Positions 1 through 12,459 of a stretch of DNA of 28,125 bases are shown here, piece by piece (position 1 is the stretch's first letter; each line of letters opens with the position of its first letter). The stretch covers positions 1-28,125 of the forward strand of contig CAJKKQ010000029.1 in the NCBI GenBank assembly GCA_905200545.1, written 5' to 3'. Source of the DNA: an uncultured Oscillibacter sp. GTDB taxonomy: Bacteria > Bacillota > Clostridia > Oscillospirales > Oscillospiraceae. The position numbers were made by a program, and so were the translations under genes. Under the pieces are notes generated by a model. That model saw nothing but the letters and a program-made list of their open reading frames with translations, did no database searches and had not been told where the DNA came from.

Positions 1-410
<410 letters not shown>

Positions 411-597
411 TCCTTTCCCGTCCTTTCCTTTGTTTTGAGTAGGGAGCAAGCACAGCAAATGAGTACCCATTTGCGATTTTGGCTTGTTGGGAAAATCCCA
501 AACCCTTTACTTTCTCTCACTCAATATCCCGTTTGAAAGGCAGCTTTTGTTGCACTTTCCCCCTCACTATATAAAAATGAAAATCCGGAAAATGATA

Positions 598-626
598 TTG
601 ACTTACCATGCAATTTGTGATATTCT
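598..626 (+). promoter_or_regulatory. Sigma-A type promoter of the PPOX/MATE cargo
   Basis: TTGACT (598-603) and TATTCT (621-626) are separated by 17 bases, a good vegetative promoter. Transcription would start near 633, giving a leader of about 90 bases before the PPOX start at 723. Confidence 0.65.
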
Positions 627-638
627 AAATAAAAATAT

Positions 639-654
639 GTTTCTGCCGAGAAAC
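639..654 (+). promoter_or_regulatory. Small leader hairpin upstream of the PPOX gene
   Basis: GTTTCT (639-644), a four-base loop and AGAAAC (649-654) form a perfect 6-bp hairpin in the predicted leader. A and T runs follow near 690-712. It could be a stabilising or attenuating structure; the evidence is structural only. Confidence 0.35.
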
Positions 655-722
655 GCTTATTCTTACTCCAGTCGGCCATGGAAGGAGTAAAAAAAAACGT
701 CTATTTTTTTGTGGAGGTCAAT

Positions 723-1232
723 ATGATATTTCGAGAAATGAGGCAAAAAAAACAGGAACTATCGCGGCAAGAGATTGCGGATATTCTGCATAAGGGGACA
801 TCTGGTGTGCTTGCCCTTTTGGGCGACAACGATTATCCCTACGCCGTTCCAATCAGTTATGTGTATGACGACGGGAAAATCTATTTTCACAGCGCAAAAA
901 GCGGTCATAAAATAGACGCTATTCAAAGAACTGAAAAAGCGTCGTTTTGTGTGATTGATAAAGATTTAGTTGTGCCGGAGGAGTACACAACTTATTTTAG
1001 AAGTGTAATTGCTTTTGGACAAATACGGATAATCGAAGGTGATCTCGAAAAGAGAGCAGCGATAGAAAAATTGGCAATCAAATATGCGCCGGAAGATACT
1101 GCCGCAAGCCGCGATCATGCCATAAACCGTGGGTGGAAGCCTCTTTGTATGTTGGAAATGACAATCGACCACATAACAGGAAAAGAGGCGATAGGACTTG
1201 TAAAAGAAAAGGAAAAATTAAATAGACTGTAA
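723..1232 (+). CDS. NimA/PPOX-like flavin-binding family protein
   Basis: A 169-residue protein of the pyridoxamine 5'-phosphate oxidase-like split-barrel superfamily, in the branch that includes nitroimidazole-resistance NimA proteins. Visible features are the N-terminal strand ending GTSGVLALLGDNDYPYAVPI, the pattern KIYFHSAKSGHKIDAI typical of the flavin/substrate-binding half, RSVIAFGQ, and the C-terminal ITGKEAIGLVKEK. Start ATG 723 is preceded by GGAGGTCAAT; an upstream ATG at 678 lacks such a site. It leads a three-gene plus-strand cargo group. A reductase role on a nitro-drug or flavin substrate is family-based inference. A homologous domain occurs in the GIY-YIG fusion gene at 4654-5373. 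Confidence 0.85.
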   Translation: MIFREMRQKKQELSRQEIADILHKGTSGVLALLGDNDYPYAVPISYVYDDGKIYFHSAKSGHKIDAIQRTEKASFCVIDKDLVVPEEYTTYFRSVIAFGQIRIIEGDLEKRAAIEKLAIKYAPEDTAASRDHAINRGWKPLCMLEMTIDHITGKEAIGLVKEKEKLNRL

Positions 1233-1272
1233 ATAAAATCAGCCCGCCGGGGTTTCATTTTATTGTGTAGTA

Positions 1273-1304
1273 GGCCAGCGTTACACAAACGCTGGCCTTT
1301 TTTT
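1273..1304 (+). terminator. Rho-independent terminator after the PPOX gene
   Basis: GGCCAGCGTT (1273-1282) pairs perfectly with AACGCTGGCC (1288-1297) around a 5-base loop, followed by a run of seven T. It lies just before the MATE gene, so MATE transcription may depend on read-through or on its own promoter. Confidence 0.85.
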
Positions 1305-1327
1305 ATTTGTTAGGAGGATTGATTATC

Positions 1328-2659
1328 ATGTATGAAGGCAAATCACACACTTTATTTGCCAAATATGCCGTACCGCAAATGATAGGGTTGCTGTTTAACT
1401 CGGTCTATATGATTGTTGACGGTGTATTCATTGGCAATCGACTTGGCCGCGACGCTATGGCCGCCGCTGCCGTTTCTGTTCCGCTTGTCGAGATACTAAT
1501 TGCATTGTCTATGGCAGTTGCCACAGGCGCGGGCGTTTTGATTTCCTCACATCTCGGTCAAGGTGAGAAAGAAAAAGCACGCCACATTTTTAGCCTTGCC
1601 GCCCTATGTACGGCTGTTATGGGGCTGTTGATTAGCGTATTGGGAAATATTTTTATTCACCCGCTTGCTGAACTTTTAGGCTCAACTCCGGTTATCCATG
1701 ATGAAGCAATCAGTTATATGTGGTACATCATTACCTTTTCCCCATTCCTGCTTTTCAGTTTCTTGTTAAGCGGTCTGGTGCGTAATGATAACCGTCCAAA
1801 ACTTGCCATGTTTGCCCTCATGTTTGGCTCTGTATCAAATATTGTCTTGGACTATGTGTTTATGTACCCATTGAACATGGGGATTGCCGGTGCAGCATTG
1901 GCTACCGCACTTGGCCCCATTTTCAGCGTTTTAATTATGCTGCCCCATTTCATATTCAAGCGCGGGGATTTGTACTTAACGAAATTCAAACTGAAGTGGC
2001 GGAGCATTTGCTCGGTCTATGTACTTGGCTTCCCGTCCTTTATCATGGAGTTTACTATTGGCATTATTACCTTTGTATATAACTTTGCCATTGTGCATTA
2101 TGGCTTTGGGGAAATCGGACTTGCAGCCTACCTTGTCATCGGCTACTTAATGTTGATTATTTTGACACTGTTTCTTGGTATGGCGCAGGGCTTGCAACCC
2201 GTATTTAGTTATTTTATGGGGACAGGGGAAGAAAAACGGAGCAAATCTCTACTTGGCTTTTCCATTAAAGCATTTTTAGCAATAGGCGTTTTGTGCTATG
2301 TCTTGATCGTGTTCTTCTCTCGCGGCTTTTTCACGATTTTCAATCCGGGAGATATTGAACTAATCAACTTTATGGAAAGTAAAAGCCTACCTTACTTTTC
2401 CGGTTTCTTCCTTGCAGGATTTAATATTTTAATGATTTCTTATTGGCAGGCAAATGGGCGCACAAGTAACGCCCTTACGGTATCTCTATGCCGTAGCGTC
2501 ATATGGCCGCCAATTTTGGTTGCCGTTCTTCCGCTGATTTTTGGCAGCGAAGCCGTATGGCTTTGCCATTCTATCAGTGAAATCATGACGGCGATTATAG
2601 CAGTTGTTTTGATTGTTTTCATAAAGCGCAAGAAAGAAAATCAGAAAGTTGGATTTTAA
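1328..2659 (+). CDS. MATE family multidrug/Na+ antiporter
   Basis: A 443-residue integral membrane protein with about 12 hydrophobic segments and the two-fold MATE architecture (MepA/NorM-like). Recognisable pieces include the start YEGKSHTLFAKYAVPQMIGLL, then VDGVFIGNRLGRDAMAA, VLISSHLGQGEKEKAR and MAQGLQPVFSYFMGTG. Such pumps export cationic drugs using a sodium or proton gradient. ATG 1328 is chosen because TAGGAGG lies 10 bases upstream; a TTG at 1307 is in frame but inside the terminator tail. The gene lies between the PPOX terminator and the cytidylate-kinase-like gene, which starts 13 bases after its stop, so these two are likely co-transcribed. Confidence 0.9.
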   Translation: MYEGKSHTLFAKYAVPQMIGLLFNSVYMIVDGVFIGNRLGRDAMAAAAVSVPLVEILIALSMAVATGAGVLISSHLGQGEKEKARHIFSLAALCTAVMGLLISVLGNIFIHPLAELLGSTPVIHDEAISYMWYIITFSPFLLFSFLLSGLVRNDNRPKLAMFALMFGSVSNIVLDYVFMYPLNMGIAGAALATALGPIFSVLIMLPHFIFKRGDLYLTKFKLKWRSICSVYVLGFPSFIMEFTIGIITFVYNFAIVHYGFGEIGLAAYLVIGYLMLIILTLFLGMAQGLQPVFSYFMGTGEEKRSKSLLGFSIKAFLAIGVLCYVLIVFFSRGFFTIFNPGDIELINFMESKSLPYFSGFFLAGFNILMISYWQANGRTSNALTVSLCRSVIWPPILVAVLPLIFGSEAVWLCHSISEIMTAIIAVVLIVFIKRKKENQKVGF

Positions 2660-2672
2660 GGAGGGACATGAT

Positions 2673-3275
2673 ATGAAGCGGATCATTACCATAGGCCGTG
2701 AATTTGGAAGCGGTGGAAGAGAAGTTGGCAGGCGTTTAGCCGAAAGACTGAATATTGCCTATTACGACCGAGAGATTATTGATGAATTGATGAAACGAAC
2801 TCAATTAGCGGAAAGTTATGTGTTGCAAGTGGAGGAAAGCAGGCCCCTGCCGCTGTTACCAATAACAACTGCTCGCACTTTTGGTATTCCTACCAACTAT
2901 ACATTGGAAAATCGTCTGTCCATTTATAAGCAGGAAAGCGAAATAATCCGCGAAATGGCAGAGAAATCGGATTGTATCATTGTAGGACGATGTGCAGACT
3001 ATGTTTTGCAAGATTTGAACCCTTTTCGCTTGTTTGTATATGCGGATATAAGTTCTAAAATTGCCCGTTGCAGGGAAAAGGGAGCCGACGCAGCGGCGAT
3101 GACGGATAAAGAATTGCAGCAAAAAATTATATCTATTGATAAGAAAAGAGCACGTTACTACCAATTTTATACAGAACAAGATTGGGGCAATAAAGCAAAC
3201 TACGATTTATGTATCAACACCACCAATACAGAAATCAAGAAAATCGTTGCTGCCATAGAGAAGTTTATCGTTTAG
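2673..3275 (+). CDS. Cytidylate kinase-like family protein
   Basis: A 200-residue protein with the N-terminal P-loop variant ITIGREFGSGGREVGRRLAE, followed by YYDREIIDELMKR. This matches the cytidylate-kinase-like family (cmk-related; often of unassigned substrate). SDCIIVGRCADYVL and VYADISSKIARC correspond to the family's central strand and LID regions. ATG 2673 is preceded by AAGGAGGGACATG, while an upstream in-frame start overlaps the MATE stop. It is the third gene of the cargo group and has the same AT-rich composition. True CMP kinase activity is uncertain because housekeeping Cmk proteins have a different, longer layout. Confidence 0.85.
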   Translation: MKRIITIGREFGSGGREVGRRLAERLNIAYYDREIIDELMKRTQLAESYVLQVEESRPLPLLPITTARTFGIPTNYTLENRLSIYKQESEIIREMAEKSDCIIVGRCADYVLQDLNPFRLFVYADISSKIARCREKGADAAAMTDKELQQKIISIDKKRARYYQFYTEQDWGNKANYDLCINTTNTEIKKIVAAIEKFIV

Positions 3276-3500
3276 CAGTATTGGGGATGTGTCAATATGT
3301 CTGTATTTCATTATCTTTCTTCTCATAACCTGCGGTCAAAAAAAGCCCTTGCGCTTGCATGGGATTTTGCGCCTATGAGTATGAACACACAAGTCATATA
3401 GTTATCTCTTATAGTTCCTGTACCAAACGCCCATGCGGTTTTATGCTGCGTGGGCGTTTGGTATTTTGCCCCCTGCTTGGGAAGAAAGGGGGTGAGAAAA
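3276..3500. other. Intergenic region upstream of the element sigma factor
   Basis: No gene is seen. The main content is the 15-bp hairpin at 3422-3465. A GGGGGTGAG ribosome-binding site (3488-3496) precedes the sigma gene. The spacer separates the cargo group from the conjugation-type regulators. Confidence 0.5.
3422..3465 (+). promoter_or_regulatory. Strong hairpin before the element sigma gene
   Basis: ACCAAACGCCCA (3422-3433) pairs perfectly with TGGGCGTTTGGT (3451-3462), and three further inner pairs extend the stem to 15 bp. Only a short ATTTT follows, so it is a weak terminator at best. Placed about 40 bases before the sigma factor start, it may attenuate that gene. Confidence 0.6.
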
Positions 3501-3941
3501 ATGATGAATAGTGAGCAGTATCGGGAACATATCGAGCGCACTTTCAACGCCTTTTGCAAGATTGTCCTTTACCATGCGGCGCTGGGTATTTACAAGAAAA
3601 TACGGCGGAAGCAACAGTTTGAGGTATCACTCGACTATCTTCGGGAGTTTGATTTTGAGCCGATTGCCACAACAGACGAGTATTTTGTGAAATACGATAT
3701 GCCTACCACTTTTACCGTTCGTGGGGAAACGGTCATTGTAGAAAGCGAGCAGTTAGCGGCCGCGCTTTTGCGTCTGCCGGAAAAGCGGCGTGAAGTGCTG
3801 TTTTTGCGGTACTACCTCGGTTACAGCGATACGGAAATCGGAAGGCTATTCGGAGTTTGCAGAAGCACAATCTTTCGTAGACGAAAAAGGTCATTGCGCT
3901 TCATACGAAAAGAACTGGAGGCGTTAGAAGATGAAGAATAG
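3501..3941 (+). CDS. Tn916 Orf7-like RNA polymerase sigma factor
   Basis: A 146-residue sigma-70/ECF-like protein. The C-terminal region 4 is clear: LPEKRREVLFLRYYLGYSDTEIGRLFGVCRSTIFRRRKRSL forms the helix-turn-helix that contacts -35 elements. The N-terminal half (EHIERTFNAFCKIVLYHAALGIYKKI) resembles regulators of Tn916-family elements. ATG 3501 follows AAAGGGGGTGAG. The next gene overlaps its end by 11 bases, matching the orf7/orf8 pair of Tn916. It likely activates element transfer or excision genes, but the partner int/xis genes are not present downstream here. Confidence 0.85.
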   Translation: MMNSEQYREHIERTFNAFCKIVLYHAALGIYKKIRRKQQFEVSLDYLREFDFEPIATTDEYFVKYDMPTTFTVRGETVIVESEQLAAALLRLPEKRREVLFLRYYLGYSDTEIGRLFGVCRSTIFRRRKRSLRFIRKELEALEDEE

Positions 3942-4140
3942 GAAATACAATTTGCTGCCCTATGAAACGATTGTAAAGGCAACCGCCGGGGAGCCGGAAG
4001 CGGTGAACACCGTCATTCAAACCTATACCGGCTACATCAAATATCTGTCCTACTTTCAAGGGAGTATCAACGACGATATTCAAGATTATCTCAAAGCGTC
4101 CTTAATGGAAGCACTACCCAAGTTCCGCTTTGACAGATGA
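3931..4140 (+). CDS. Tn916 Orf8-like helix-turn-helix protein
   Basis: A 69-residue protein starting MKNRKYNLLPYETIVKATAGEPEAV. It contains VIQTYTGYIKYLSYF and LKASLMEALPKFRFD, the layout of the short HTH-domain proteins that follow the sigma gene in Tn916-like elements. Its start lies inside the sigma gene, so translation is probably coupled. The role is presumably regulatory, with DNA or RNA-polymerase binding inferred from family position. In Tn916 the next genes would be xis and int, whereas here only non-coding hairpins follow. Confidence 0.8.
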   Translation: MKNRKYNLLPYETIVKATAGEPEAVNTVIQTYTGYIKYLSYFQGSINDDIQDYLKASLMEALPKFRFDR

Positions 4141-4160
4141 CAAGTAGCAAAGGCAGAAAA

Positions 4161-4202
4161 AGCCGTCAAGGATAAACTTCGCGCTTCGCGTCCTTGACGG
4201 CT
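4161..4202 (+). terminator. 12-bp perfect hairpin after the sigma/HTH pair
   Basis: AGCCGTCAAGGA (4161-4172) and TCCTTGACGGCT (4191-4202) are exact complements around an 18-base loop. There is no proper T-run after it on the plus strand, so its terminator function is uncertain. It lies 20 bases past the HTH stop codon. Confidence 0.5.
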
Positions 4203-4230
4203 TTGCCCGTCTTTGCTGTCGGGTAATCAA

Positions 4231-4263
4231 GAGGGCGCAAACGGATAGACCGCTTGCGCCCTC
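4231..4263. repeat. Inverted repeat, hairpin with GAGGGCGCAA arms
   Basis: GAGGGCGCAA (4231-4240) and TTGCGCCCTC (4254-4263) pair perfectly, with an inner CGG/CCG adding further pairs. Together with the preceding hairpin it forms a tandem structured region; its role is unknown. Confidence 0.5.
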
Positions 4264-4524
4264 AATCTATGATGATGTGTTACGCAATAGAGAGCGAGAG
4301 CGCCTTACACAACGCGGTTTTGCAGACTTGAAAACACAAGAGTTGAGTGTTTATATCCCCACCCTCAAAAATGGCGGTCTACTGCGTAACATTTTGCCAT
4401 GCCAGCGTGGACATTTAGGCAGGCGAAAAGCCTTGATTTATGCGACTTGCAGAGAACGGAAACAGAACAAGTAGTATCGTATCCCTTGAAAGCGCAAAAA
4501 TGCCTTTCTATCGTTCCACGCGGC

Positions 4525-4568
4525 ACAGAAAAAGCGGGCAAGAAGTCTTTGACCTCTTACCCGCTTTT
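4525..4568 (-). terminator. Hairpin terminator, probably for the minus-strand GIY-YIG/PPOX gene
   Basis: AAAAGCGGG (4530-4538) pairs with CCCGCTTTT (4560-4568), and AAGA/TCTT extends the stem past one mismatch. Read on the minus strand the stem ends in a run of five T then C. It lies about 90 bases beyond the stop of the minus-strand gene at 4654. Confidence 0.5.
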
Positions 4569-4653
4569 GTGGCAATCCGTATGGCAGCTACCCTGTTTCA
4601 GTTGATTGTTGATGCTGTTTTATGAGTAGCTACCATCCCGGCGTCCTCTTTTT

Positions 4654-5373
4654 TCAGTCATTGTGCTTTCCGGTGATGGCCTCTATCCGGATCCGCCAGA
4701 CCCCGGTGCGGGGGGCAGCCTCCAGCTCCCGACCCACGGCTTCCCGGCCCATATCCGGCGTATACCGGCCGCAAAGCTTCTCCAGAGCCGCGGTTTTCTC
4801 CGCCGGATCCGACACCTCCTCCGCCGTGCCGAAGGCGACGGCAGAGCGGTAACGGGTAGTAAAACGCTCCTGCACCACCTGGGCATCCTCCACAAAGGTC
4901 AGGCATACCCGGGGATGGCTTTGCAGGCAGCGGTTCTTGCGTCCCTCCCGGGCACAGTGGAAATAGAAGTCCCGTCCTTCCCGGATCACATGGACCGGCA
5001 CGGCATAGGCGCTGCCATCTTCCGCCGTCATGGACAGCACGGCATACAAACAACTGTCCGCCACCGTCCAGGCTGTTTCTTCCGGCAGCTGCCGGTCTTT
5101 TCTTCGCATCTCATACATGGTTTTACGCTCCTTTTCCTGAATGAGGGCCAGCTTCTCCCTGCGGGACAGGCCCTTGATGGCGGCCTCCCGGCGCAGGGCC
5201 GTGGATTTGTCCGGCAGTTCCTCCCAGTAGGCCAGTGCCACCGGCAGACGGCTGCGGGTGTACTTGGCGCCTTTCCCGCTCTGGTGGACCACCAGGCGCC
5301 TTGCTACGTCGTTGGTGGAGCCGGTATACAGCGTTCCATCCCCGCAGCGCAGGATATAGACATAATAGGCCAC
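4654..5373 (-). CDS. GIY-YIG domain fused to a NimA/PPOX-like domain
   Basis: A 239-residue protein with two domains. Residues 1-80 form a UPF0213/YhbQ-like GIY-YIG nuclease domain (MAYYVYILRCGDGTLYTGST, then KGAKYTRSRLPVAL and ALRREAAIKGLSRREKLALI). Residues 86-239 form a PPOX/NimA-like flavin-binding domain (AYAVPVHVIREGRDFYFHCA, RSAVAFGTAEEV, ITGK). The start is GTG 5373 with GGAGGG upstream. Inside the frame, ATG 5118 (residue 86) has its own AGGAG about 9 bases upstream, so the flavin domain may also be made alone. The protein ends ITGKHND, shorter than the homologue at 723-1232 (ITGKEAIGLVKEKEKLNRL), exactly where the acquired element begins. The GIY-YIG role in DNA processing is family inference. 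Confidence 0.85.
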   Translation of the reverse strand: MAYYVYILRCGDGTLYTGSTNDVARRLVVHQSGKGAKYTRSRLPVALAYWEELPDKSTALRREAAIKGLSRREKLALIQEKERKTMYEMRRKDRQLPEETAWTVADSCLYAVLSMTAEDGSAYAVPVHVIREGRDFYFHCAREGRKNRCLQSHPRVCLTFVEDAQVVQERFTTRYRSAVAFGTAEEVSDPAEKTAALEKLCGRYTPDMGREAVGRELEAAPRTGVWRIRIEAITGKHND

Positions 5374-5403
5374 GGTGTTTTTCCCTCCTCGTTGGTCTCC
5401 TTG

Positions 5404-5409
5404 AGTATA
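5404..5409 (-). promoter_or_regulatory. Extended -10 of the GIY-YIG/PPOX gene
   Basis: On the minus strand TGGTATACT forms an extended -10 box with TATACT at 5409-5404, about 30 bases before the GTG start. No good -35 is visible 17 bases upstream, consistent with an extended -10 promoter. Confidence 0.45.
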
Positions 5410-5442
5410 CCACAGCTGCCGCCCCGGGGAAAGACCTCCCGG

Positions 5443-5472
5443 GCATGGGGACTTCCCCAGGCTGCATAGGAA
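5443..5472 (+). promoter_or_regulatory. Possible sigma-E type promoter of sigK
   Basis: CATAGGAA (5465-5472) resembles the sigma-E -10 element CATACAnT, and GCATGGGG (5443-5450) sits 14 bases upstream as a weak -35. Known sigK genes are transcribed in the mother cell by sigma-E with SpoIIID. The match is partial, and the spacing is the best support. Confidence 0.35.
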
Positions 5473-5492
5473 TGAACTCAGGAGGGATCGCC

Positions 5493-5820
5493 ATGCTGTC
5501 TGCTGTGCTGCTGTTGGTCAATACGCTGCTGTTTTCCCTGCGCCTGTCCGGCGGGGGATCGTTTCCCCGCCCCCTGTCCGCCGCTGAGGAACGAGAGTAC
5601 CTGCAAAAATACGCGCAGGGTGATCCGGAGGCACGGGATGCCCTGATCCGCCACAATCTGCGCCTGGTGGCCCATATCGTGAAAAAATACTACACCCAAA
5701 GCGGTGATCAGGAGGATCTTATCTCCATCGGCACCATTGGGCTCATCAAGGGCATCTCCAGCTTCAATCCGGAAAAGGGTGCCCGGCTCGCCACCTATGC
5801 CGCCCGCTGCATTGAAAATG
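5493..5820 (+). CDS. sigK: Sporulation sigma factor K, 5' segment (interrupted gene)
   Basis: This is the N-terminal 109 codons of pro-sigma-K (the spoIVCB part). After GGAGGG and ATG 5493 comes a hydrophobic pro-sequence (MLSAVLLLVNTLLFSLRLS), then FPRPLSAAEEREYL. Sigma region 2 follows: LIRHNLRLVAHIVKKY, QEDLISIGTIGLIKGI and ATYAARCIEN. The B. subtilis protein has the same order and near-identical region 2. The gene breaks inside region 2 at the core AAATG (5816-5820). Beyond it the frame runs on as unrelated sequence (ILSPAHRPL...) to a stop at 6143. The missing half lies at 12043-12459. Joining the halves gives 246 residues, against 241 in B. subtilis (from memory). The product drives late mother-cell spore coat genes. 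Confidence 0.95.
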
Positions 5821-5824
5821 CAAT
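5811..5824. other. Left attachment site of the sigK intervening element
   Basis: The site reads ATTGAAAATGCAAT, an imperfect dyad with ATTG/CAAT arms, containing the core AAATG (5816-5820) shared with the right end at 12042-12046. The dyad is centred between 5817 and 5818, the same position within the core as the dyad at the right site. The exact crossover bases are inferred. Confidence 0.8.
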
Positions 5825-5894
5825 CCTCTCACCGGCGCATCGTCCCCTGGGATTGAGCTGCTCCCGCCAGGACCGGCAAGGGCTGAAAAAAATA

Positions 5895-5933
5895 CCCGGA
5901 ACTTCTGTTTATCCAGAGGTCCCGGGCTTTTTT
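5895..5933. terminator. Bidirectional terminator at the left end of the skin element
   Basis: CCCGGAACTTCTG (5895-5907) pairs with CAGAGGTCCCGGG (5914-5926), 12 of 13 positions including one wobble. It is followed by CTTTTTT on the plus strand and by a T-run on the minus strand. It ends truncated sigK transcripts from the left and hydrolase transcripts from the right. Confidence 0.8.
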
Positions 5934-6660
5934 ATGAATCGGCCTGGCGGCCGCGTAGAAATTCCTGGATGGCCGCCACCGTCTGCTCCTGCTGTTCCTG
6001 AGTGGAAATCTCCGCAGGGGGATCCCCCTTCTGTGGCCCGTAGTTGCCGAATTGGGCGTGATTGCCCCCCTGGATCTCCACCACGTTTTCCGTGTAGTCC
6101 AGCTGATCCTCCACACTCTGGTTCAGGGAGCCGTAAATGGTAAGGGTGTCCTCCGGAGGATAATCGCCGTAGATGTACGCCCCCAGCAAAATCAGCCCGT
6201 CCACCTGGGCCCGGTGGTCGGCGGCAAACTGTGAGGCCATGGCACCGCCCATGGAGTGCCCCGCCAGATACCAGTGTTCCACCTCCGGGAATCGTTCCAT
6301 CACATCCTGGGCAGCATCGGGGTCAAAAATCGCCATACGGAAGGGCATCTCCACCAGGATGCAGGTGACGCCGGTGCGGCGGATCTGATCCAGCAGCGGC
6401 AGATAGGCAATGGCCTCCACTTTGGCTCCGGGATAGAAGATGATGGCGGTGTCGGTGGGAACCGAGGGGGAGAGGATCGTCATCCCATCCTCCACCGCCA
6501 TACCGTCACCCCGGGCCATGACCTCCAGGGCCACATCCTGGGCCGGGTAATAGTCGGAGACATACCAGAAAAACGCCCCTGTCAGTGTTGCCAGCAGAAG
6601 GACTGCCCCCATGACAACCTTTTTCCCCCGTGATATGCTCTTTTTCCTGTTTGTGTTCAA
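5932..6660 (-). CDS. Membrane-anchored alpha/beta hydrolase
   Basis: A protein of about 242 residues of the alpha/beta hydrolase fold-5 type. A basic N-terminus (NRKKSISRGKK) precedes one hydrophobic segment (VVMGAVLLLATLTGAFFWYV), so the catalytic domain is probably outside the membrane. AIIFYPGAKVEAIAYLPLL gives the oxyanion strand, WYLAGHSMGGAMAS holds the nucleophile serine in GHSMGG, and EIQGGNHAQFGNYG supplies the His near the C-terminus. There is no ATG start. TTG 6660 lies 7 bases after AGGTGA, whereas TTG 6666 is too close to it. The gene follows the EFR1 gene by 24 bases, forming an operon. Substrate is unknown. It is carried inside the sigK intervening element. Confidence 0.85.
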   Translation of the reverse strand: MNTNRKKSISRGKKVVMGAVLLLATLTGAFFWYVSDYYPAQDVALEVMARGDGMAVEDGMTILSPSVPTDTAIIFYPGAKVEAIAYLPLLDQIRRTGVTCILVEMPFRMAIFDPDAAQDVMERFPEVEHWYLAGHSMGGAMASQFAADHRAQVDGLILLGAYIYGDYPPEDTLTIYGSLNQSVEDQLDYTENVVEIQGGNHAQFGNYGPQKGDPPAEISTQEQQEQTVAAIQEFLRGRQADS

Positions 6661-6684
6661 TTCCAATCACCTGCACCCCGCGCT

Positions 6685-7419
6685 TCAGCGGTCCTGCAAA
6701 TACCGCCCGATGGTATAGCGGCCCCGCTTTTCGGTTCCCATTCCGTATTGAATGGCCTCCTGCGGACATTCATGGATGCAGCGCAGGCACTGGTAGCACT
6801 GCCTGCCCCAGGCGGGCTTGCCGTTCATCAGGGAAATGGTTCCGGCAGGACAGTTCCGGGCGCAAAGTCCGCAGCCGTTGCAGGAATCCTCCGTGAAAAA
6901 AGCCTTGGTGCTGCGGGCAAACTTGTTGAAGCCAAAGTTCACAAAGCCGGATTTCAGCTTTGCAAGGGAGCCCTCCTCCACCCGATATACTGCTTTCCGC
7001 TGGATGATCTCCCGGGCCATGGTCTGGATGGCCTTCTCCGCCTCATGGATCTTCTGACGGGCCATCTGGTCGTCGTCCACATCCGCGCCCAGAATATAGT
7101 TGTTGGGCATCACCAGGCTATAGCTGCTGCGGAGAGGATACAGGGCGGAGAGCTTTTTCATGGCCAGTCCGGCCTCCTCCCCGCAGGTGCAGACTCCGAA
7201 CGTAAAGGCGTTTGTTTTTTCCAGGGTCTTCACGAAGTCCAGCATGGGCTCCGGCACGCCCCAGGCATAGATGGGAAACACCAGCCCGATCTGCCTCTCA
7301 TTCCGAATCTCCGGTGTTTTCTCAAGCCGGGAAATATTCCGGGTCTCATCGCCGGTAAGAGCCGCGATCTGCTCCGCCGCCCACCGGGAATTCCCGGTAC
7401 CGGAAAAATAAAAAATCAT
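6685..7419 (-). CDS. EFR1-type flavodoxin-ferredoxin fusion protein
   Basis: A 244-residue electron-transfer protein. The N-terminal flavodoxin-like domain starts MIFYFSGTGNSRWAAEQIAAL (FMN phosphate loop) and continues IGLVFPIYAWGVPEPMLDFV. The C-terminal third carries two 4Fe-4S ferredoxin motifs, CNGCGLCARNCP and CYQCLRCIHECP. ATG 7419 is supported by AGGAAG upstream; longer in-frame forms extend into the XRE gene and lack family sequence. It lies 64 bases after the XRE gene and 24 before the hydrolase. EFR1 proteins are common in anaerobic Firmicutes; the partner redox enzyme is not known. The nearby double-flavodoxin oxidoreductase is a candidate. Confidence 0.9.
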   Translation of the reverse strand: MIFYFSGTGNSRWAAEQIAALTGDETRNISRLEKTPEIRNERQIGLVFPIYAWGVPEPMLDFVKTLEKTNAFTFGVCTCGEEAGLAMKKLSALYPLRSSYSLVMPNNYILGADVDDDQMARQKIHEAEKAIQTMAREIIQRKAVYRVEEGSLAKLKSGFVNFGFNKFARSTKAFFTEDSCNGCGLCARNCPAGTISLMNGKPAWGRQCYQCLRCIHECPQEAIQYGMGTEKRGRYTIGRYLQDR

Positions 7420-7483
7420 GGTATCAGCACTTCCTATCGTTTCATTGGTATAGCGGCCCCTCCGGCTATCTTCCCGGCCGCCA

Positions 7484-7882
7484 TCAGGCAGGGACATCTT
7501 TCCCAAGGGTGGAGGCCGCCAGGCAGGCAAGGCCGATGCCCAGCATGACCATGGCGTCCCGGCCTTCCAGCGCCTCCAGAATGGAGAGCACCGCCACGGC
7601 CACGCCCATGGCCAGCGCCACGCCCCGGAACACCGTGTTCAGGATCACGCCCGTCCTGCCGTTCTCCGGCAGTCTTCCGCACTTCCCCTGCATCAGCTCA
7701 TCCACGGAAAGCCCCAACGCATCGGCCAGGGCAGGCAGCGTATGGATATCCGGGCAGGCAAGATCCCGCTCCCATTTGGAGACGGCCTTATCCGTCACGC
7801 CCATCTTTTCCGCCAGCTCCAGTTGGGTCATGCCCTTTTGCTTGCGCATCTCCGCTATTAACTTCCCCAGGGATTTTTTCAT
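7484..7882 (-). CDS. XRE-family regulator with C-terminal membrane segments
   Basis: A 132-residue protein. Residues 1-65 are a Cro/C1-type helix-turn-helix domain (LIAEMRKQKGMTQLELAEKMGVTDKAVSKWERDLACPDI). Residues after 80 are hydrophobic, forming about two membrane segments (VFRGVALAMGVAVAVLSIL and AMVMLGIGLACLAASTL). This layout is common among Clostridial XRE proteins next to transporter or redox genes. AAAGGAG precedes the ATG by 9 bases, and a good promoter lies at 7918-7946. It probably regulates its own operon with EFR1 and the hydrolase. Its ligand or signal is unknown. Confidence 0.88.
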   Translation of the reverse strand: MKKSLGKLIAEMRKQKGMTQLELAEKMGVTDKAVSKWERDLACPDIHTLPALADALGLSVDELMQGKCGRLPENGRTGVILNTVFRGVALAMGVAVAVLSILEALEGRDAMVMLGIGLACLAASTLGKDVPA

Positions 7883-7917
7883 AGGAGGTCGCTCCTTTAC
7901 ACTTCTGGATACGTCTC

Positions 7918-7946
7918 ATTGTACGCCGCGCTCCGGCGTTTCTCAA
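7918..7946 (-). promoter_or_regulatory. Promoter of the XRE-EFR1-hydrolase operon
   Basis: On the minus strand TTGAGA (7946-7941) and TACAAT (7923-7918) are separated by 17 bases, a near-consensus vegetative promoter. It lies 36 bases before the XRE start. Confidence 0.7.
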
Positions 7947-8002
7947 CCGTCCGGCGGTTTCCCCCTCTCGACCATCAGTTTCGCCGGAGTAGAGCGGCAC
8001 CA

Positions 8003-9352
8003 TCAGGTGCGCTTTGCCTGTTCCACCACTTTTTCATAGGGGCCGATCATGGCCTCGGTCATCTTCCCCCTGGCCTTCTTCTGCACCGACGGAACCGCCA
8101 TCAGGGCTCCCACCAGGCGCATCTGCCAGATGCGCTTTTTCTGCTTCTGGGGAAAATCGTAGATGCCGTGCTCTTTATAGAACTTGTGGTCGGCCTTCAT
8201 AAGGCCCTGCATGACATAGATGAGATCCCGGAAGATCTTCATGCCTCCCACACCGTAGAAGTTGGCCGGACGGGTGAGTTTTTGCTCCATGGCAAAAGCC
8301 AGGTTGTCCGCCAGGGAGCGGATGTCCGCCGCTGTTTCGGCTTCATCCGTAGCCACGCCGGCCAAATAGTTGCCTCCCACCTCCGCCCGGCCCTCCACGA
8401 TCATGCGCAGGTTGGGCTCACAGCGGTAGTCGCCGCTGATGAGATAGGCGATGGGGGTACCGTGGGTAACGGTGCGGTGGCCGTTGCAGAACTGCCGGTC
8501 ATCAAAACACTTGAAGCTGGAGTGGGTGAAGTGATCGGAGATGGTAAAGGCGTACACAAAGCCGTCGGCGGTCTGGATGGTGCTGCGCAGAAAATCGTCA
8601 AACCCGTCCTTGTACACGCATTTGCCGGTAATGGCGCAGCCGAAGCAGCCCAGGCATCCGCCGCCGAAGGGGAACTCCCGGATATTCACCACCCGGCTCT
8701 CATAGGGCAGGGCACGGCGGAAATCGGCGATCATATTGGCGAGATTCCAGTCGTCGGGGGCACAGTTGGTGACGATGACCACATCCTTCTCCCGGCTCTT
8801 GGGCACGTCAGGCAGGATGGCCTGATACACAGCGCTTTCCCGGGCCGGAGCCTGGACGGGCGGTGTGACAAACAGGCCGTGTTGGCAGGAGAAAATCAGC
8901 TGGTCAAAGAGCATCCGGGCGTCCTTTTGGCCCTGCACACTGAGGAGATCCTCCATGTCGGCGGACAGACCCCGGATCACTTTCATCCCCAGGTCAAAGC
9001 AGTTTTCCTCCACATACCGATGGGCGGTGACGTCGTAGAAGTGCTTGGAGGTGGTGATCTGGGAGGCGAACTTGCCGGCAAGATCCACCCCGTCGGCCTT
9101 GATGAGCTCTATCAGGCGGTGGAGCTGGTAAGGAGCGATAAAGGTGTAGACCGGGTAGCAGAACAGGATCAGCTCTGCCTGCTCCAGGGCGGAGCGCACC
9201 GGTGAAAAGTCCTTTTCATAGGCTTTGATGCGCTGGCCCACCGGCAAAAACGTGAAGGTGTGTTCCGGGTGCAGGGCCTGCAAATACAGCGCCGTGTGGA
9301 CGGTGGTGGAGTTTTTCCCCTTGGGGCTGGCATTTAAAACGAGAATCTTCAT
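8003..9352 (-). CDS. NAD(P)H-dependent oxidoreductase with two flavodoxin-like domains
   Basis: A 449-residue protein. Residues 1-170 form an FMN-reductase/flavodoxin-like domain (MKILVLNASPKGKNSTTVHTA; ELILFCYPVYTFIAPYQL). A second related domain begins near residue 190 (KDVVIVTNCAPDDWNLANMIADF) and has a cysteine-rich turn, GGGCLGCFGCAITGKCVYKDGFDDF, like NADPH-dependent FMN reductases of Clostridia. The C-terminal 80 residues are helical and basic. Its ATG overlaps the stop of the PadR gene (ATGA), so the two are translationally coupled and PadR likely controls it. A role in quinone, flavin or xenobiotic reduction is plausible; the substrate is unknown. Confidence 0.88.
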   Translation of the reverse strand: MKILVLNASPKGKNSTTVHTALYLQALHPEHTFTFLPVGQRIKAYEKDFSPVRSALEQAELILFCYPVYTFIAPYQLHRLIELIKADGVDLAGKFASQITTSKHFYDVTAHRYVEENCFDLGMKVIRGLSADMEDLLSVQGQKDARMLFDQLIFSCQHGLFVTPPVQAPARESAVYQAILPDVPKSREKDVVIVTNCAPDDWNLANMIADFRRALPYESRVVNIREFPFGGGCLGCFGCAITGKCVYKDGFDDFLRSTIQTADGFVYAFTISDHFTHSSFKCFDDRQFCNGHRTVTHGTPIAYLISGDYRCEPNLRMIVEGRAEVGGNYLAGVATDEAETAADIRSLADNLAFAMEQKLTRPANFYGVGGMKIFRDLIYVMQGLMKADHKFYKEHGIYDFPQKQKKRIWQMRLVGALMAVPSVQKKARGKMTEAMIGPYEKVVEQAKRT

Positions 9353-9900
9353 GACGGTTCCTCCAATTTGCGAAGCAGGCGGCAGTACCAGTCCCGTTCA
9401 AATTCCGCGGCGGCAATGCCGTATTCGATGGTATATCCCTGAAAGCGGAAGATCGTATCCCAGTCCTGTCCCGGAGGCAGCGGGGCCTCCCGCACCTGCC
9501 GGAACCGCTCCCGGATGGCCCGCAGCAGGGCGCCCGTCTCCTCCATCTGCCGGATGTAATCCCGGATGGCGGCGGTGCGGGAGTGAGGAGAGGCAAGCCC
9601 CAGGAAAAACATGCGGGCAAGCTCCATATTCTTCACCCTGTCCGCCTGCATGGGCTGGGCCACCCACCGGGAAAACGCGGCCCGGCCGGTATCCGTGATG
9701 GAATAGGTCTTCTTCCGCCGCCGGCCCTCCGTGGTCTCTGCAGCCGTGACATAGCCCTCCCGAACCAGCTTCCCCAGGGCCGCCTGGACGCTGCCGGCGC
9801 TGTGGGAACAGATGAGAGCCAGATTCTGTTTGATGAACTGCTGCAGCTCATATCCCGTCATGGGCGTGAGGATCAGCAGCCCCAGGATGAGATACTCCAT
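9349..9900 (-). CDS. PadR-family transcriptional regulator
   Basis: A 183-residue protein. The winged-helix domain (MEYLILGLLILTPMTGYELQQFI, then VQAALGKLVREGYVTAAETTEGRRRKKTYSITDTGRAAF) is typical PadR, and residues 90-180 form the alpha-helical dimerisation region. The start at ATG 9900 is set by GGAGG seven bases upstream; a TTG twelve bases earlier overlaps that site. It is the first gene of a two-gene operon with the flavodoxin oxidoreductase. An inverted repeat over its own -10 suggests autoregulation. PadR proteins usually respond to phenolic compounds or drugs, which fits an inducible reductase (inference). Confidence 0.92.
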   Translation of the reverse strand: MEYLILGLLILTPMTGYELQQFIKQNLALICSHSAGSVQAALGKLVREGYVTAAETTEGRRRKKTYSITDTGRAAFSRWVAQPMQADRVKNMELARMFFLGLASPHSRTAAIRDYIRQMEETGALLRAIRERFRQVREAPLPPGQDWDTIFRFQGYTIEYGIAAAEFERDWYCRLLRKLEEPS

Positions 9901-9913
9901 AGGCGCCTCCAAT

Positions 9914-9930
9914 ATATCGAATAGAGATAT
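9914..9930. promoter_or_regulatory. Putative PadR operator
   Basis: ATATC (9914-9918) and GATAT (9926-9930) form an inverted repeat with a 7-base spacer that overlaps the -10 box of the padR promoter. AT-rich dyads at this position are typical PadR targets. Binding is inferred. Confidence 0.5.
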
Positions 9931-9958
9931 TATACAGGAAGCGGCAGGATACCGTCAA
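9929..9958 (-). promoter_or_regulatory. Promoter of the padR-oxidoreductase operon
   Basis: On the minus strand TTGACG (9958-9953) and TATAAT (9934-9929) are 18 bases apart, with TG directly before the -10. This is a strong vegetative promoter, 28 bases before the PadR start. Confidence 0.75.
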
Positions 9959-9961
9959 CGG

Positions 9962-10005
9962 AAAAAACAGGGCCGCCCGGAGGATTTCTCCTCTGGGCGC
10001 CCCTG
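9962..10005 (-). terminator. Terminator of the small skin gene
   Basis: A 17-position stem with 15 pairs (9968-9984 with 9989-10005, loop TTTC) is followed on the minus strand by a run of six T (9967-9962). It begins 4 bases past the stop codon of the 67-residue gene, which shows that gene has its own transcript. Confidence 0.85.
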
Positions 10006-10008
10006 CTG

Positions 10009-10212
10009 TTATGACTGCCGGCCAGACGCCTGCACCGCATCCAGCACCGCCTGCAGCAGCGCCAGTTTCTCTCCGGCAGGGCAGTTTAAATTGTCCATGG
10101 CCCCAAAGACGGCCTCCGCATGGGCACCGGCCACCCGTCCCGCCAGAGCCTGCCTGCCCGCTTCTCCCTCCGGGACATGTACGGCCACTTCAACGGCTTT
10201 GCGCGTTTTCAT
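10009..10212 (-). CDS. Small skin-element protein, candidate directionality factor
   Basis: A 67-residue protein starting MKTRKAVEVAVHVPEGEAGR and continuing as a mainly helical chain with one cysteine (DNLNCPAGEKLALLQAVLDAVQ). I do not recognise a named family. The gene is well supported: GGAGGAG lies seven bases before ATG 10212, and a strong terminator follows its stop directly. It is divergent from the recombinase gene, with a 131-bp shared intergenic region holding a perfect palindrome. Skin and phage recombinases of this type need a small element-encoded partner to excise (CD1234 in C. difficile, SprB in SPbeta). Position and size make this a candidate, but that is inference only. Confidence 0.7.
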   Translation of the reverse strand: MKTRKAVEVAVHVPEGEAGRQALAGRVAGAHAEAVFGAMDNLNCPAGEKLALLQAVLDAVQASGRQS

Positions 10213-10272
10213 TTCACTCCTCCTCTTTCCCCCTTTTCTTCCGGTTCCCAGCCTATGGCGGGAGCCCGTCCC

Positions 10273-10286
10273 ATATGCCGGCATAT
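10273..10286. promoter_or_regulatory. Perfect 14-bp palindrome between the divergent skin genes
   Basis: ATATGCCGGCATAT is a perfect palindrome, placed 57 bases before the recombinase start and 60 bases before the small gene start. On the minus strand GCATATGG followed 14 bases later by CATAGGCT resembles a sigma-E promoter for the small gene. It could be an operator for the sporulation control of excision. The sequence shows the palindrome; the role is inferred. Confidence 0.5.
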
Positions 10287-10343
10287 CCGCCGCCGGATGC
10301 CACTAAAATGAAAGGAGATCACCCGGAGGGAGGAACATAGACC

Positions 10344-12047
10344 ATGCAGCAAAACGAGGACGTGATCGCCGTCTACTCCCGCAAATCTCGGTTTACCGGC
10401 AAGGGGGAGAGCATCGGCAACCAGGTGGATCTGTGCCGGAGCTATATCCGCAGCACATTTGGAGAGCAGTATGCAGATCGCGCTGCGGTTTTCGAGGACG
10501 AGGGATTTTCCGGAGGCAATCTGAACCGGCCCGGCTTCCGGAAAATGATGGACGATGCCCGGGCGCATCAGTTCCGGGCCGTGGTGGTATACCGGCTGGA
10601 CCGGATCAGCCGCAACATCAGCGACTTCTCCCACCTCATTGAGGAGCTGGGTCGTCTGGGGGTGGATTTTATCTCCATCCGGGAGAGCTTTGACACCTCC
10701 AGTCCCATGGGCCGGGCCATGATGTACATTGCCTCGGTGTTCAGTCAGCTGGAACGGGAGACCATTGCCGAGCGTATCCGGGACAACCTCCACGAGCTGG
10801 CCAAAACCGGCCGCTGGCTGGGCGGCACCACTCCTACCGGCTACGCCTCCGAAAGCGTCCGGAACATCACCGTGGAGGGAAAGTGCAAAAAGGCCTGTAA
10901 GCTTAAACTGGTTCCGGAGGAAGCGGAGATCATCCGGAAAATCTACCACCTGTACAGCCGGACGGAATCTCTCTCTGAAACGGAAGCCCAGCTGCTCCGG
11001 GAGGGAATCAAAACCAAAACCGGACGGGATTTCACCCGGTTCTCCATCAAGGCCATTTTGCAGAATCCCGTCTATCTCATGGCCGATGCAGACGCCCGCC
11101 AATATTTTCTGGACCGAGATGCGGAGGTGTTTTCCCCGCCGGAGGCCTTCGACGGCCAGCGGGGCATTCTGGCCTATAACCGCACCCATCAGGCAAAGGG
11201 CCGCGCCACCGTGTACCTGCCCGTCAGTCAGTGGATCGTAACCGTGGGGCAGCATCCGGGTCTTATCCCCTCCGGAGTGTGGATCCGGACCCAGGAATCC
11301 CTGGAGCGCAGCAAGTGCAAATCATACCGAAAGCCCCGCAACAGCCGGGCGCTGCTGACGGGCCTGCTCCTGTGCCGCTGCGGCAGCCGGATGTATCCCA
11401 AAAACACCTCAAGGATCACGGATGACGGCCGGCCCATCTACACCTACGTCTGCAAAGCCAAGGAGCGCAGCAAGGGCAGCCTTTGCAGCTGCAGCAATGT
11501 AAGCGGCAACGCGCTGGACGCCGCCGTTCTGGAGCAGATCCGGGCTCTGCCGGAGGACACAGGTGCACTTGTCTCCCGGCTGAGCGCCCACAGGCAATTC
11601 TATGCCGGACAGCAGGACACGGATCTGCCGGCGCAGCTGCGGCGGCAGCAATCCGAGATCCAGCGCAGGATCCGCGCATTGATCGACTCCCTGCCGGAGC
11701 TGGAGGACAGTGCCGCCGCCCTCCACGTAAAGGAGCGGGTGGAGGAGCTGCACGCTCAGGCGGCCACCCTGCGCTCCCGCCTTTCCGCCCTGGAGACTCC
11801 GCCCGGTCCGCAAGCGCTGTGGGGCCCCCGGCAGGACACCCTGGCCCGGCGGCTTGCTGGGCTGCAAAGCGCTCTGGATGCCCTGCCGCCGGAGCAGCTG
11901 CGATCTGTGATCCGCGCCGTAGTGGAAAAAGTGGTATGGGACGACCGCCAGGCCCATGTGGTGCTGTGGGGCGCCGCCTATGAAGCCAGTCCGGCGGAAC
12001 ACCCCACCCTTCCGGAACAGACGCACTTGCGTGAGGATAGCAAATGA
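10344..12047 (+). CDS. spoIVCA: SpoIVCA-like large serine recombinase of the skin element
   Basis: A 567-residue site-specific recombinase. Residues 1-150 are the resolvase catalytic domain: VYSRKSRFTGKGES with predicted nucleophile Ser15, VYRLDRISRNISDF, and MGRAMMYIASVFSQLERETIAERI leading into the long E-helix. Residues 150-260 form the recombinase domain (GGTTPTGYASES). A zinc ribbon follows (LLCRCGSRMYPK and YVCKAKERSKGSLCSC), then a coiled-coil-like stretch (residues 430-500). GGAGGGAGG precedes ATG 10344. Its TGA stop (12045-12047) overlaps the right attachment core. Its place between the sigK halves identifies its job as precise excision in the mother cell; timing by sigma-E is inferred from B. 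subtilis and C. difficile. Confidence 0.93.
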   Translation: MQQNEDVIAVYSRKSRFTGKGESIGNQVDLCRSYIRSTFGEQYADRAAVFEDEGFSGGNLNRPGFRKMMDDARAHQFRAVVVYRLDRISRNISDFSHLIEELGRLGVDFISIRESFDTSSPMGRAMMYIASVFSQLERETIAERIRDNLHELAKTGRWLGGTTPTGYASESVRNITVEGKCKKACKLKLVPEEAEIIRKIYHLYSRTESLSETEAQLLREGIKTKTGRDFTRFSIKAILQNPVYLMADADARQYFLDRDAEVFSPPEAFDGQRGILAYNRTHQAKGRATVYLPVSQWIVTVGQHPGLIPSGVWIRTQESLERSKCKSYRKPRNSRALLTGLLLCRCGSRMYPKNTSRITDDGRPIYTYVCKAKERSKGSLCSCSNVSGNALDAAVLEQIRALPEDTGALVSRLSAHRQFYAGQQDTDLPAQLRRQQSEIQRRIRALIDSLPELEDSAAALHVKERVEELHAQAATLRSRLSALETPPGPQALWGPRQDTLARRLAGLQSALDALPPEQLRSVIRAVVEKVVWDDRQAHVVLWGAAYEASPAEHPTLPEQTHLREDSK

Positions 12048-12053
12048 GATCCT
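12034..12053. other. Right attachment site of the sigK intervening element
   Basis: AGGATAGCAAATGAGATCCT has 5-bp inverted arms (AGGAT/ATCCT) centred between 12043 and 12044, within the shared core AAATG (12042-12046). The centre aligns exactly with the left site. The core also holds the recombinase stop codon and codons of sigK (AAT GAG). Confidence 0.8.
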
Positions 12054-12459
12054 GATGTATTTTCGCAGTCAGAAGAAACTGCAGGGGGAGGTCTCCCTGT
12101 CCGACTCCATTGATACGGACAAAGAGGGCAACGCCCTGCAGCTGATGGATGTGGTAGGGGTGGACGACACCATGCTGGAAGATCTCCACGACCGGGACAG
12201 CGCTCTGCGTCTGCGGCAGCTGGTACGGGAAAGCCTTACCGCCCGGGAGGCGGAGATCATCCGCCTGCGGTACGGCCTGGGCGGCACGGTGCCTCTGACC
12301 CAGCGGGAGATCGCCTCCAGTTTCGGCATCTCCCGGTCCTATGTATCCCGCATTGAAAAGCGTGCTCTGGAGAAGCTCCGGGCCGGGTTGGAGGAAAATC
12401 CGGCTCATGCTGCCGCCAAACATTCTCCATTCCCACTGTCTTCCAGAGAAAACCGCTGA
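12043..12459 (+). CDS. sigK: Sporulation sigma factor K, 3' segment (spoIIIC part)
   Basis: This is the C-terminal half of sigma-K, with no start codon of its own in the unrearranged state. From codon AAT 12043 it reads NEILMYFRSQKKLQGEVSLSD, then DTDKEGNALQLMDVVG, then regions 3 and 4 (LTAREAEIIRLRYGLGG; TQREIASSFGISRSYVSRIEKRALEKL). The last is the -35 binding helix-turn-helix, as in B. subtilis spoIIIC. Frame and sequence join exactly to the 5' segment after AAATG: ...RCIEN + EILMYFR..., compared with RCIENEILMHLR in B. subtilis. It therefore cannot make a complete sigma factor until the 6.2-kb element is removed. Confidence 0.95.
   Translation, partial: NEILMYFRSQKKLQGEVSLSDSIDTDKEGNALQLMDVVGVDDTMLEDLHDRDSALRLRQLVRESLTAREAEIIRLRYGLGGTVPLTQREIASSFGISRSYVSRIEKRALEKLRAGLEENPAHAAAKHSPFPLSSRENR

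Follow-up and report, generated by a model that had tools for sequence, protein, structure and literature searches.

A compact skin-type element in sigK of an uncultured Oscillibacter sp. that is likely to excise and restore the gene

Introduction

Why does a sporulation sigma factor gene lie in two pieces, and could the cell put the pieces together again? The question was raised by a window of 28,125 nucleotides, the whole stretch of DNA analysed here, from an uncultured Oscillibacter sp. (family Oscillospiraceae; assembly GCA_905200545.1, contig CAJKKQ010000029.1, positions 1 to 28,125, forward strand), in which a 6,226-bp insert (core-to-core distance) interrupts sigK behind codon 109. A preliminary description, made from the letters alone, had taken the insert for a skin-type (sigK-intervening) element that must be removed before sigma-K can be made. 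Comparison with related genomes and models of known families now makes it probable that the insert is such an element and excises to restore sigK; judged by anatomy it is of the skin type, and it looks able to remove itself precisely.

Results

The interrupted gene and its joined product

As first described, the two sigK halves lie about 6.2 kb apart on the same strand, with AAATG at both ends of the break, 6,226 bases apart (Table 1). The insert is thus inside sigK with both halves in one orientation, as in skin elements, and the Pfam matches are Sigma70_r2 for the 5′ half and Sigma70_r4 for the 3′ half. Unjoined, the reading frame of the 5′ half continues into the insert; joining the halves at the common AAATG gives an open frame of 246 residues. 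The AAATG repeat by itself means little, since 31 copies are present on the + strand of the window. Joining at this short common sequence does restore the full SigK frame, and a near-identical natural protein (below) is unbroken there.

The joined protein was scored against NCBIfam and gave 284.5 bits with the SigK model NF004471 (cut-off 252), 282.2 bits with the stricter SigK model TIGR02846 (below its cut-off of 298.65), and 213.7 and 203.1 bits with the SigE models (cut-offs 339 and 348.6). Because the SigK scores exceed the SigE scores, the joined gene is best read as sigK rather than sigE. The expectation that fusion at AAATG would restore both the frame and the family match was borne out, and the comparison that the preliminary description had asked for gave an alignment to SigK through the break point, with one of the two SigK cut-offs passed. 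At its N-terminus the joined protein is hydrophobic, as is the pro-sequence of B. subtilis SigK, so that proteolytic control may act on it as well.

Regions 5′ of sigK were searched for a sigma-E-like promoter motif, the consensus being presumed to have the form NCAT-N17/18-YATANNNT. A strict motif was present in 21 of 76 relatives (0.4 expected) and a loose one in 30 of 76 (3.4 expected). Selection on the gene was gauged over 125–126 codons of seven sequences, with ratios computed from tabulated dN and dS: dN/dS was 0.04–0.09 between split sigK genes, 0.03–0.15 between split and intact genes, and 0.05–0.11 between intact genes, dS being saturated throughout.

The uninterrupted site in relatives

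Relatives of sigK were taken as the best 80, ranked by score, of 542 tblastn-confirmed matches in species genomes; the nearest are labelled Oscillibacter, Dysosmobacter, Oscillospiraceae or Clostridia. All 80 loci are unbroken at residue 109, in a set biased to intact genes because ranking by score selects against split ones. What goes beyond chance is the gapless junction in the DNA alignments, in which window positions ~5820–5828 adjoin 12042 (for example L002 and L003); positions 4754–5828 and 12042–12385 are contiguous in L002, and likewise in L003, L004, L008 and others. The order of the lexA-to-ribosomal region 3′ of sigK is kept in L002, L003 and L033. One protein, P0182, differs from the joined SigK at a single position in the first 210 residues and continues through the junction, diverging only after residue 210, the third insertion site described below; four more (P0178–P0181) match the joined protein at 94–97% and are uninterrupted. 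Near-identical strains therefore carry the empty site with the predicted joined sequence, which answers the call for a search for intact sigK genes. Within the 11 genomes of the closest genus that are cut at codon 109, no other sigK was found (E <= 1e-28), the next long match being 44–47% identical or absent.

Attachment sites

The inverted arms at the two ends of the insert would meet in an excised circle as a palindromic attP, GTGAGGATAGC-AAATG-CAATCCTCTCAC, the circle junction predicted for the window being CGTGAGGATAGCAA joined to ATGCAATCCTCTCA. Centred on the AA of the core, this palindrome has 9 matching pairs out of 11, a value attained by 30 of 20,000 junctions drawn at random from window sequence; as in skin elements, the half-sites form an inverted repeat around the exchange point. 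The attP sites of phage serine recombinases are described as symmetric about a central dinucleotide (PMC5595907), and the reconstructed attP fits this symmetry, whereas attB does not. The arms recur in related elements: before the core, the right arms of all eight other junctions of sufficient length lie within two bases of GAGGATAGC, and after it seven other left arms resemble GCTATCCTC to varying degree.

Two contigs, in genomes other than that of the window (loci L125 and L128), stop exactly at the junction. Contig C11 of G064, read towards sigK, starts with AAATGAA at the first base common to the split and joined forms, and contig C201 of G031 ends with GAAAATG at the last such base. Ends at these exact bases are expected if both forms coexist in a sample, because an assembler can leave them there.

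The recombinase and its clade

The 3′ end of the insert holds a large serine recombinase with Resolvase, Recombinase and zinc-ribbon domains, so that the element encodes its own site-specific recombinase, as skin elements do. The preliminary description had compared its placement with that in B. subtilis and C. difficile: the position at the 3′ end stands, and the likeness to B. subtilis does not, the recombinase there being reported against the 5′ fragment and in the opposite direction (PMC10745906). In the window it is on the + strand, against the sigK 3′ half and in the same direction. The stop codon (12045–12047) falls on the sigK side of the junction. On the circle the frame would be 60 residues longer (627 aa, against 567 aa when integrated), and since sigK sequence completes the stop, integrated and circular forms would encode different C-termini. 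The residues EDSK end four of the six recombinase relatives read (P0001, P0007, P0019 and P0031) and are lacking in the other two.

In the closest genus, the recombinase was matched in 12 of 86 genomes (E <= 1e-60). Seven of these recombinases (L101–L107; 43–60% identity), of which L102 and L106 are cut by contig ends, all have the sigK 3′ half next downstream; a partial copy (L108; 66%) and four distant ones (L109–L112; 33–41%) have no sigK alongside. Searches with the joined SigK matched 82 of the 86 genomes (E <= 1e-28), and sigK is cut at codon 109 in 11 (G024, G029, G031, G033, G034, G035, G043, G046, G051, G055 and G064). Both halves lie on a single contig in G043 (22.6 kb core to core) and G051 (35.5 kb) and on two contigs in G024, G034 and G035; the remaining genomes yielded a single half, G046 having the 3′ half together with a piece of a 5′ half cut at codon 65. 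These cut-site counts rest largely on fragmented assemblies. Internal stops occur in some relatives' sigK matches (G066, G018).

Among 400 sampled genomes of the family, the recombinase clade was found in 38 (E <= 1e-100), roughly a tenth and a lower bound, because scoring was limited to three candidates in each genome. Inspection of 30 clade loci placed 28 directly against a sigK half, 25 at the 3′ half and three at the 5′ half in reverse (L213, L224, L230); at L240 the 5′ half is 1.4 kb away, and L237 has no sigK. By these sequence comparisons, the clade to which the recombinase belongs occurs mainly next to sigK. The right-junction pattern was matched in 32 of 394 genomes of the order, comprising by eye 24 junctions, seven uninterrupted genes and one unclear case. 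The wider recombinase family is large, as 7,609 of 8,000 scored proteins were relatives at E <= 1e-60, a count made irrespective of sigK location. Near-identical copies of the recombinase and of the small protein described below were present on further database contigs (P0001 on 4, P0130 on 62). At locus L127 (contig C62 of G034), the sigK 5′ half with its left arm occurs twice, ~2.3 kb apart and in the same direction, possibly a tandem element or a duplication.

A small protein as candidate directionality factor

Divergent from the recombinase gene lies a gene for a 67-aa protein, relatives of which were aligned from other elements. A profile of it matched 5 of the 86 genus genomes, all among the 11 cut at codon 109; because four of the five had supplied rows of the profile, the useful part of this search is the absence elsewhere. 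In 400 family genomes, by their labels the same draw as that used for the recombinase, it was found in 34; the recombinase was also found in 30 of these (38 carriers in all), where about 3 would be expected. It gave no match in Pfam, NCBIfam or PHROG and, by sequence, a single PDB match at E 0.7; its predicted structure is two helices in a confident model (pLDDT 88). Directionality factors are said to share no significant sequence similarity (PMC5025042).

A sigma-E-like motif was found 36–70 bases 5′ of the small gene in 7 of the 9 cases first seen (0.07 expected from first-order Markov shuffles, the motif having been picked after those nine upstream regions were seen). Of 27 additional upstream regions, 10 have it (0.26 expected). 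On linkage and this promoter motif, the small protein is a candidate excision factor.

Cargo and surroundings

Five further genes form the cargo (Table 1). The insert has a GC content of 60.5%, close to that of the adjoining flanks, and no phage structural genes were found among its seven proteins (Pfam, NCBIfam, PHROG), which sets it apart from a prophage. Their PHROG matches were of integrase, invertase and transposase types, regulators and weak enzyme types, with one weak match to replication initiation (PadR protein, 23 bits). A phage origin was considered and rejected: the nearest annotated phage integrase, from a Terrisporobacter phage, is only 36% identical and no similar arm stands just after it. 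None of the window's cargo genes was found in the fetched parts of other elements of the recombinase clade, the single XRE match, in L129, falling outside the element. No RNA family reached gathering score in the window.

Relatives of the flavodoxin cargo protein lie near sigK elsewhere: 74–79% identical and ~1–3 kb away in L015 (2911–4275) and L051 (8461–9810), and 56% identical and ~3 kb away in L028 (11944–13287). In these three genomes, where the relative is within ~3.3 kb, sigK is uncut at codon 109, and their comparison gave no visible path of a sigK-neighbour gene into the insert.

Immediately beside sigK, 4654–5373 encodes a GIY-YIG domain fused to a pyridoxamine-oxidase-like domain; its Nim-like match has 83 bits against an NCBIfam cut-off of 260, and several relatives match the GIY-YIG part only. 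Positions 1–4650 differ from the remainder of the window in GC content (43.5% against about 60%) and hold a serine recombinase N-terminus at the left edge with, by eye, sigma-like and MATE-like genes; this region is probably part of another mobile element.

Table 1. Coordinates of sigK, the inserted element and its predicted sites in the window.
Feature	Position	Strand	Remarks
Sigma-E-like promoter match 5′ of sigK	5443..5468	+	loose motif form only
sigK 5′ half	5493..5820	+	joined-protein residues 1–109; sigma-70 region 2; aligns with relatives' uninterrupted sigK
Left exchange core AAATG	5816..5820	+	
Left attP arm (GCAATCCTCTCAC)	5820..5832	+	inverted copy of right arm; similar arms in related elements
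Alpha/beta hydrolase, cargo	5932..6666	-	PF12695
EFR1 family ferredoxin-type protein, cargo	6685..7530	-	NF038196, 240.4 bits, cut-off 75; true start may be downstream of 7530
XRE-type helix-turn-helix regulator, cargo	7484..7882	-	PF01381
Flavodoxin/FMN-reductase family protein, cargo	8003..9352	-	PF03358, PF02525
PadR-type regulator, cargo	9349..9912	-	PF03551; overlaps flavodoxin gene
Small protein, 67 aa, candidate recombination directionality factor	10009..10212	-	divergent from recombinase; alignments, co-occurrence
Sigma-E-like promoter motif	10250..10278	-	starts 66 bases upstream of small gene
Large serine recombinase, 567 aa	10344..12047	+	last codons (E-D-S-K) form right attP arm; sigK sequence completes stop
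Right attP arm (GTGAGGATAGC)	12031..12041	+	
Right exchange core AAATG	12042..12046	+	
sigK 3′ half	12042..12459	+	sigma-70 region 4; aligns with relatives' uninterrupted sigK

Other insertion sites in sigK

A second site in sigK, after codon 65 (between HIVKK and Y; loci L161–L176), is used by elements with a recombinase family of their own. It is cut in 11 of the 86 genus genomes (G007, G008, G015, G018, G026, G046, G052, G058, G062, G066 and G082); locus L033, labelled Oscillibacter sp. 1-3, comes from G007. The codon-65 recombinases are 68–90% identical to that of G007. Five loci have the recombinase next to the 3′ half and six have it next to the 5′ half, which looks like insertion in either orientation; on single contigs these elements measure about 5 to 20 kb. 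At L042 (~8583–8615, in G008), the end of a lexA-type gene lies directly against the 3′ half of a codon-65 cut, in reversed order relative to relatives; by its sequence, a rearrangement has taken place there.

A third site, after codon 210 (between SRSYVS and R), was checked by sequence in 12 loci (L006, L007, L038, L069, L164, L165, L176, L227, L231, L232, L235 and L236), and 8 of these 12 genes are also cut at codon 65 or 109, giving two interruptions in one sigK. The insert in L069 is about 2.4 kb, with a recombinase frame that ends in the sigK tail; that in L007 is prophage-like by eye. Cuts at codon 65 or 109 occur in 21 of the 86 genus genomes, to which sequence-checked cuts at codon 210 add G012 and G013; here too most of the assemblies behind the counts are fragmented.

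Discussion

The insert is likely to work like a skin element. In the mechanism suggested by its features, a sigma-E-type promoter would switch on the small protein in the mother cell; as directionality factor, this protein would turn the recombinase from integration to excision; and the recombinase would join the two AAATG cores at the central AA, releasing a 6.2-kb circle and restoring sigK. Because such a promoter would act in the mother cell, the forespore would keep and pass on the split gene.

Several observations weigh against this reading. Oscillibacter has been called asporogenous (PMC3533761), so the host may not sporulate. The contig ends at the junction could reflect a mixture of strains. 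The window's own sigK has the sigma-E-like motif in loose form only, and saturation of dS blunts the comparison of substitution rates. In 17 genomes chosen for search among those that hold near sigK loci, no close copy of the recombinase was found (34% identity at best). The small protein occurs without the recombinase, at the threshold used, in G299, G306, G332 and G336, and its fold has no PDB match at E <= 0.001. The motif is absent from 17 of the 27 further upstream regions of the small gene (one just 13 bases long), and the ten that bear it include some close relatives and two motifs identical to an earlier one. Finally, a pattern search of the 86 genus genomes found no exact attP junction, and four exact matches lay in viral contigs with neither recombinase nor sigK. 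With up to two mismatches the pattern was matched at 17 places in 16 of the 86 genomes, five being right junctions and 12 others, of which the one inspected (contig C247 of G035) has neither recombinase nor sigK; a reversed control pattern also gave several matches. As a search for the excised circle, these pattern matches are evidence in neither direction.

A less probable, though serious, alternative is a site-specific mobile element for which sigK serves as the place of integration, under no developmental control, excising rarely and at random, its host sporulating poorly until the element is lost. The patchy presence of cuts (11 of 86 genus genomes) beside near-identical empty sites suits such an element, as do the inversion of three clade members, a cargo not met in the fetched parts of other elements, and the small-gene upstream regions that for the most part lack the motif. 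It accounts less well for the sigma-E-like motif that precedes the small-protein gene in several lineages and for the low dN/dS of split sigK genes.

It is unlikely that the insertion is dead, sigK a decaying pseudogene and the host no longer able to sporulate. Both halves of the window's sigK and all 567 codons of the recombinase are open, both att arms are present, close relatives keep an uninterrupted sigK, and dN/dS is low among split genes, dS being saturated; the asporogenous description of the genus (PMC3533761), the internal stops in some relatives' sigK matches and the partial recombinase copy away from sigK are what decay would lead one to expect. An artefact of assembly or binning, which might be suspected because most relatives are metagenome assemblies, can be set aside as extremely improbable, the same architecture being found on single contigs in G043 and G051, with conserved arms, a sigK half adjoining in 28 of 30 loci and near-identical genes on further database contigs.

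A wider proposal has about an even chance of being right: that Oscillospiraceae harbour a dedicated family of self-excising sigK elements, with a recombinase clade specific for one codon, a directionality factor of its own switched by sigma-E, and interchangeable cargo of about 6 to 35 kb; that elements of this group dock generally in sigK, at three sites (behind codons 65, 109 and 210), with two interruptions in certain genes; and that sigma-K may require one or two programmed excisions in a large share of gut species. Skin elements have been called an exception in clostridia (PMC5025042); judging from these loci, self-excising DNA in sigK may be commoner in gut bacteria than thought.

Should excision on cue be real, a major group of gut anaerobes would commonly go through a programmed rearrangement of DNA on the way to a spore. 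Dozens of related elements would then let one study what makes sigK the target, by what route a mobile element turns into a developmental switch, and which of the two, element or host, benefits. At 6.2 kb, with one recombinase and one candidate factor, the element offers a small experimental system. Annotation is touched as well: such genomes could be recorded as having no sigK or a broken one, and the species then be called non-sporulating.

Comparison with known systems

The skin element of B. subtilis (recombinase SpoIVCA) likewise splits sigK, brings its own recombinase, has a short core (AATGA) and is excised in the mother cell; it is reported as 48 kb and phage-like, whereas the window element is 6.2 kb and non-phage, and its recombinase adjoins the 5′ fragment and points the other way, that of the window adjoining the 3′ half and pointing the same way (PMC10745906). 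The skinCd element of C. difficile also splits sigK, at a site and in an orientation unlike those of B. subtilis, and its excision requires the recombinase CD1231 and the small element-encoded CD1234, a directionality factor dependent on sigma-E and SpoIIID (PMC5025042). The small protein of the window, with its sigma-E-like motif, recalls CD1234 as described there, a likeness of description and not of aligned proteins; by the same account skinCd differs in being prophage-like and C. difficile sigK in having no pro-sequence (PMC5025042).

Insertions in sigK of the B. cereus group are reported at nt 195 and nt 423 (PMC10745906). Island IV of B. cereus biovar anthracis is, like the window element, a non-phage insertion in sigK and is excised in sporulation; it differs in its size of 22.2 kb, its restriction-modification system, its site at nt 195 and a recombinase against the 5′ fragment, nt 195 being codon 65 and so, by number, like the second site in Oscillospiraceae sigK (PMC10745906). 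Another non-phage insertion in a sporulation gene with a serine recombinase and an extra factor (GirX) is gin of B. cereus, which lies in a different gene, gerE, and has 28.6 kb and three recombinases (PMC5595907). Integration within sigK is also reported for two prophages, MMB025 of Alicyclobacillus, with the core TCTC, and phiS63 of C. perfringens; both differ in being phages (PMC13141910, which cites phiS63).

The preliminary description had suggested that a compact, non-phage element of this kind was undescribed. Its compactness and lineage are indeed unusual, and the part concerning its non-phage nature gives way to island IV, a non-phage sigK insertion already published (PMC10745906). 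In the open-licence literature, subscription papers and supplements aside, no account of such elements in sigK was recognised for Oscillibacter or Oscillospiraceae. Set beside these systems, the element is new in its lineage, undescribed as far as searched, in its compactness and in its prevalence, and not in principle.

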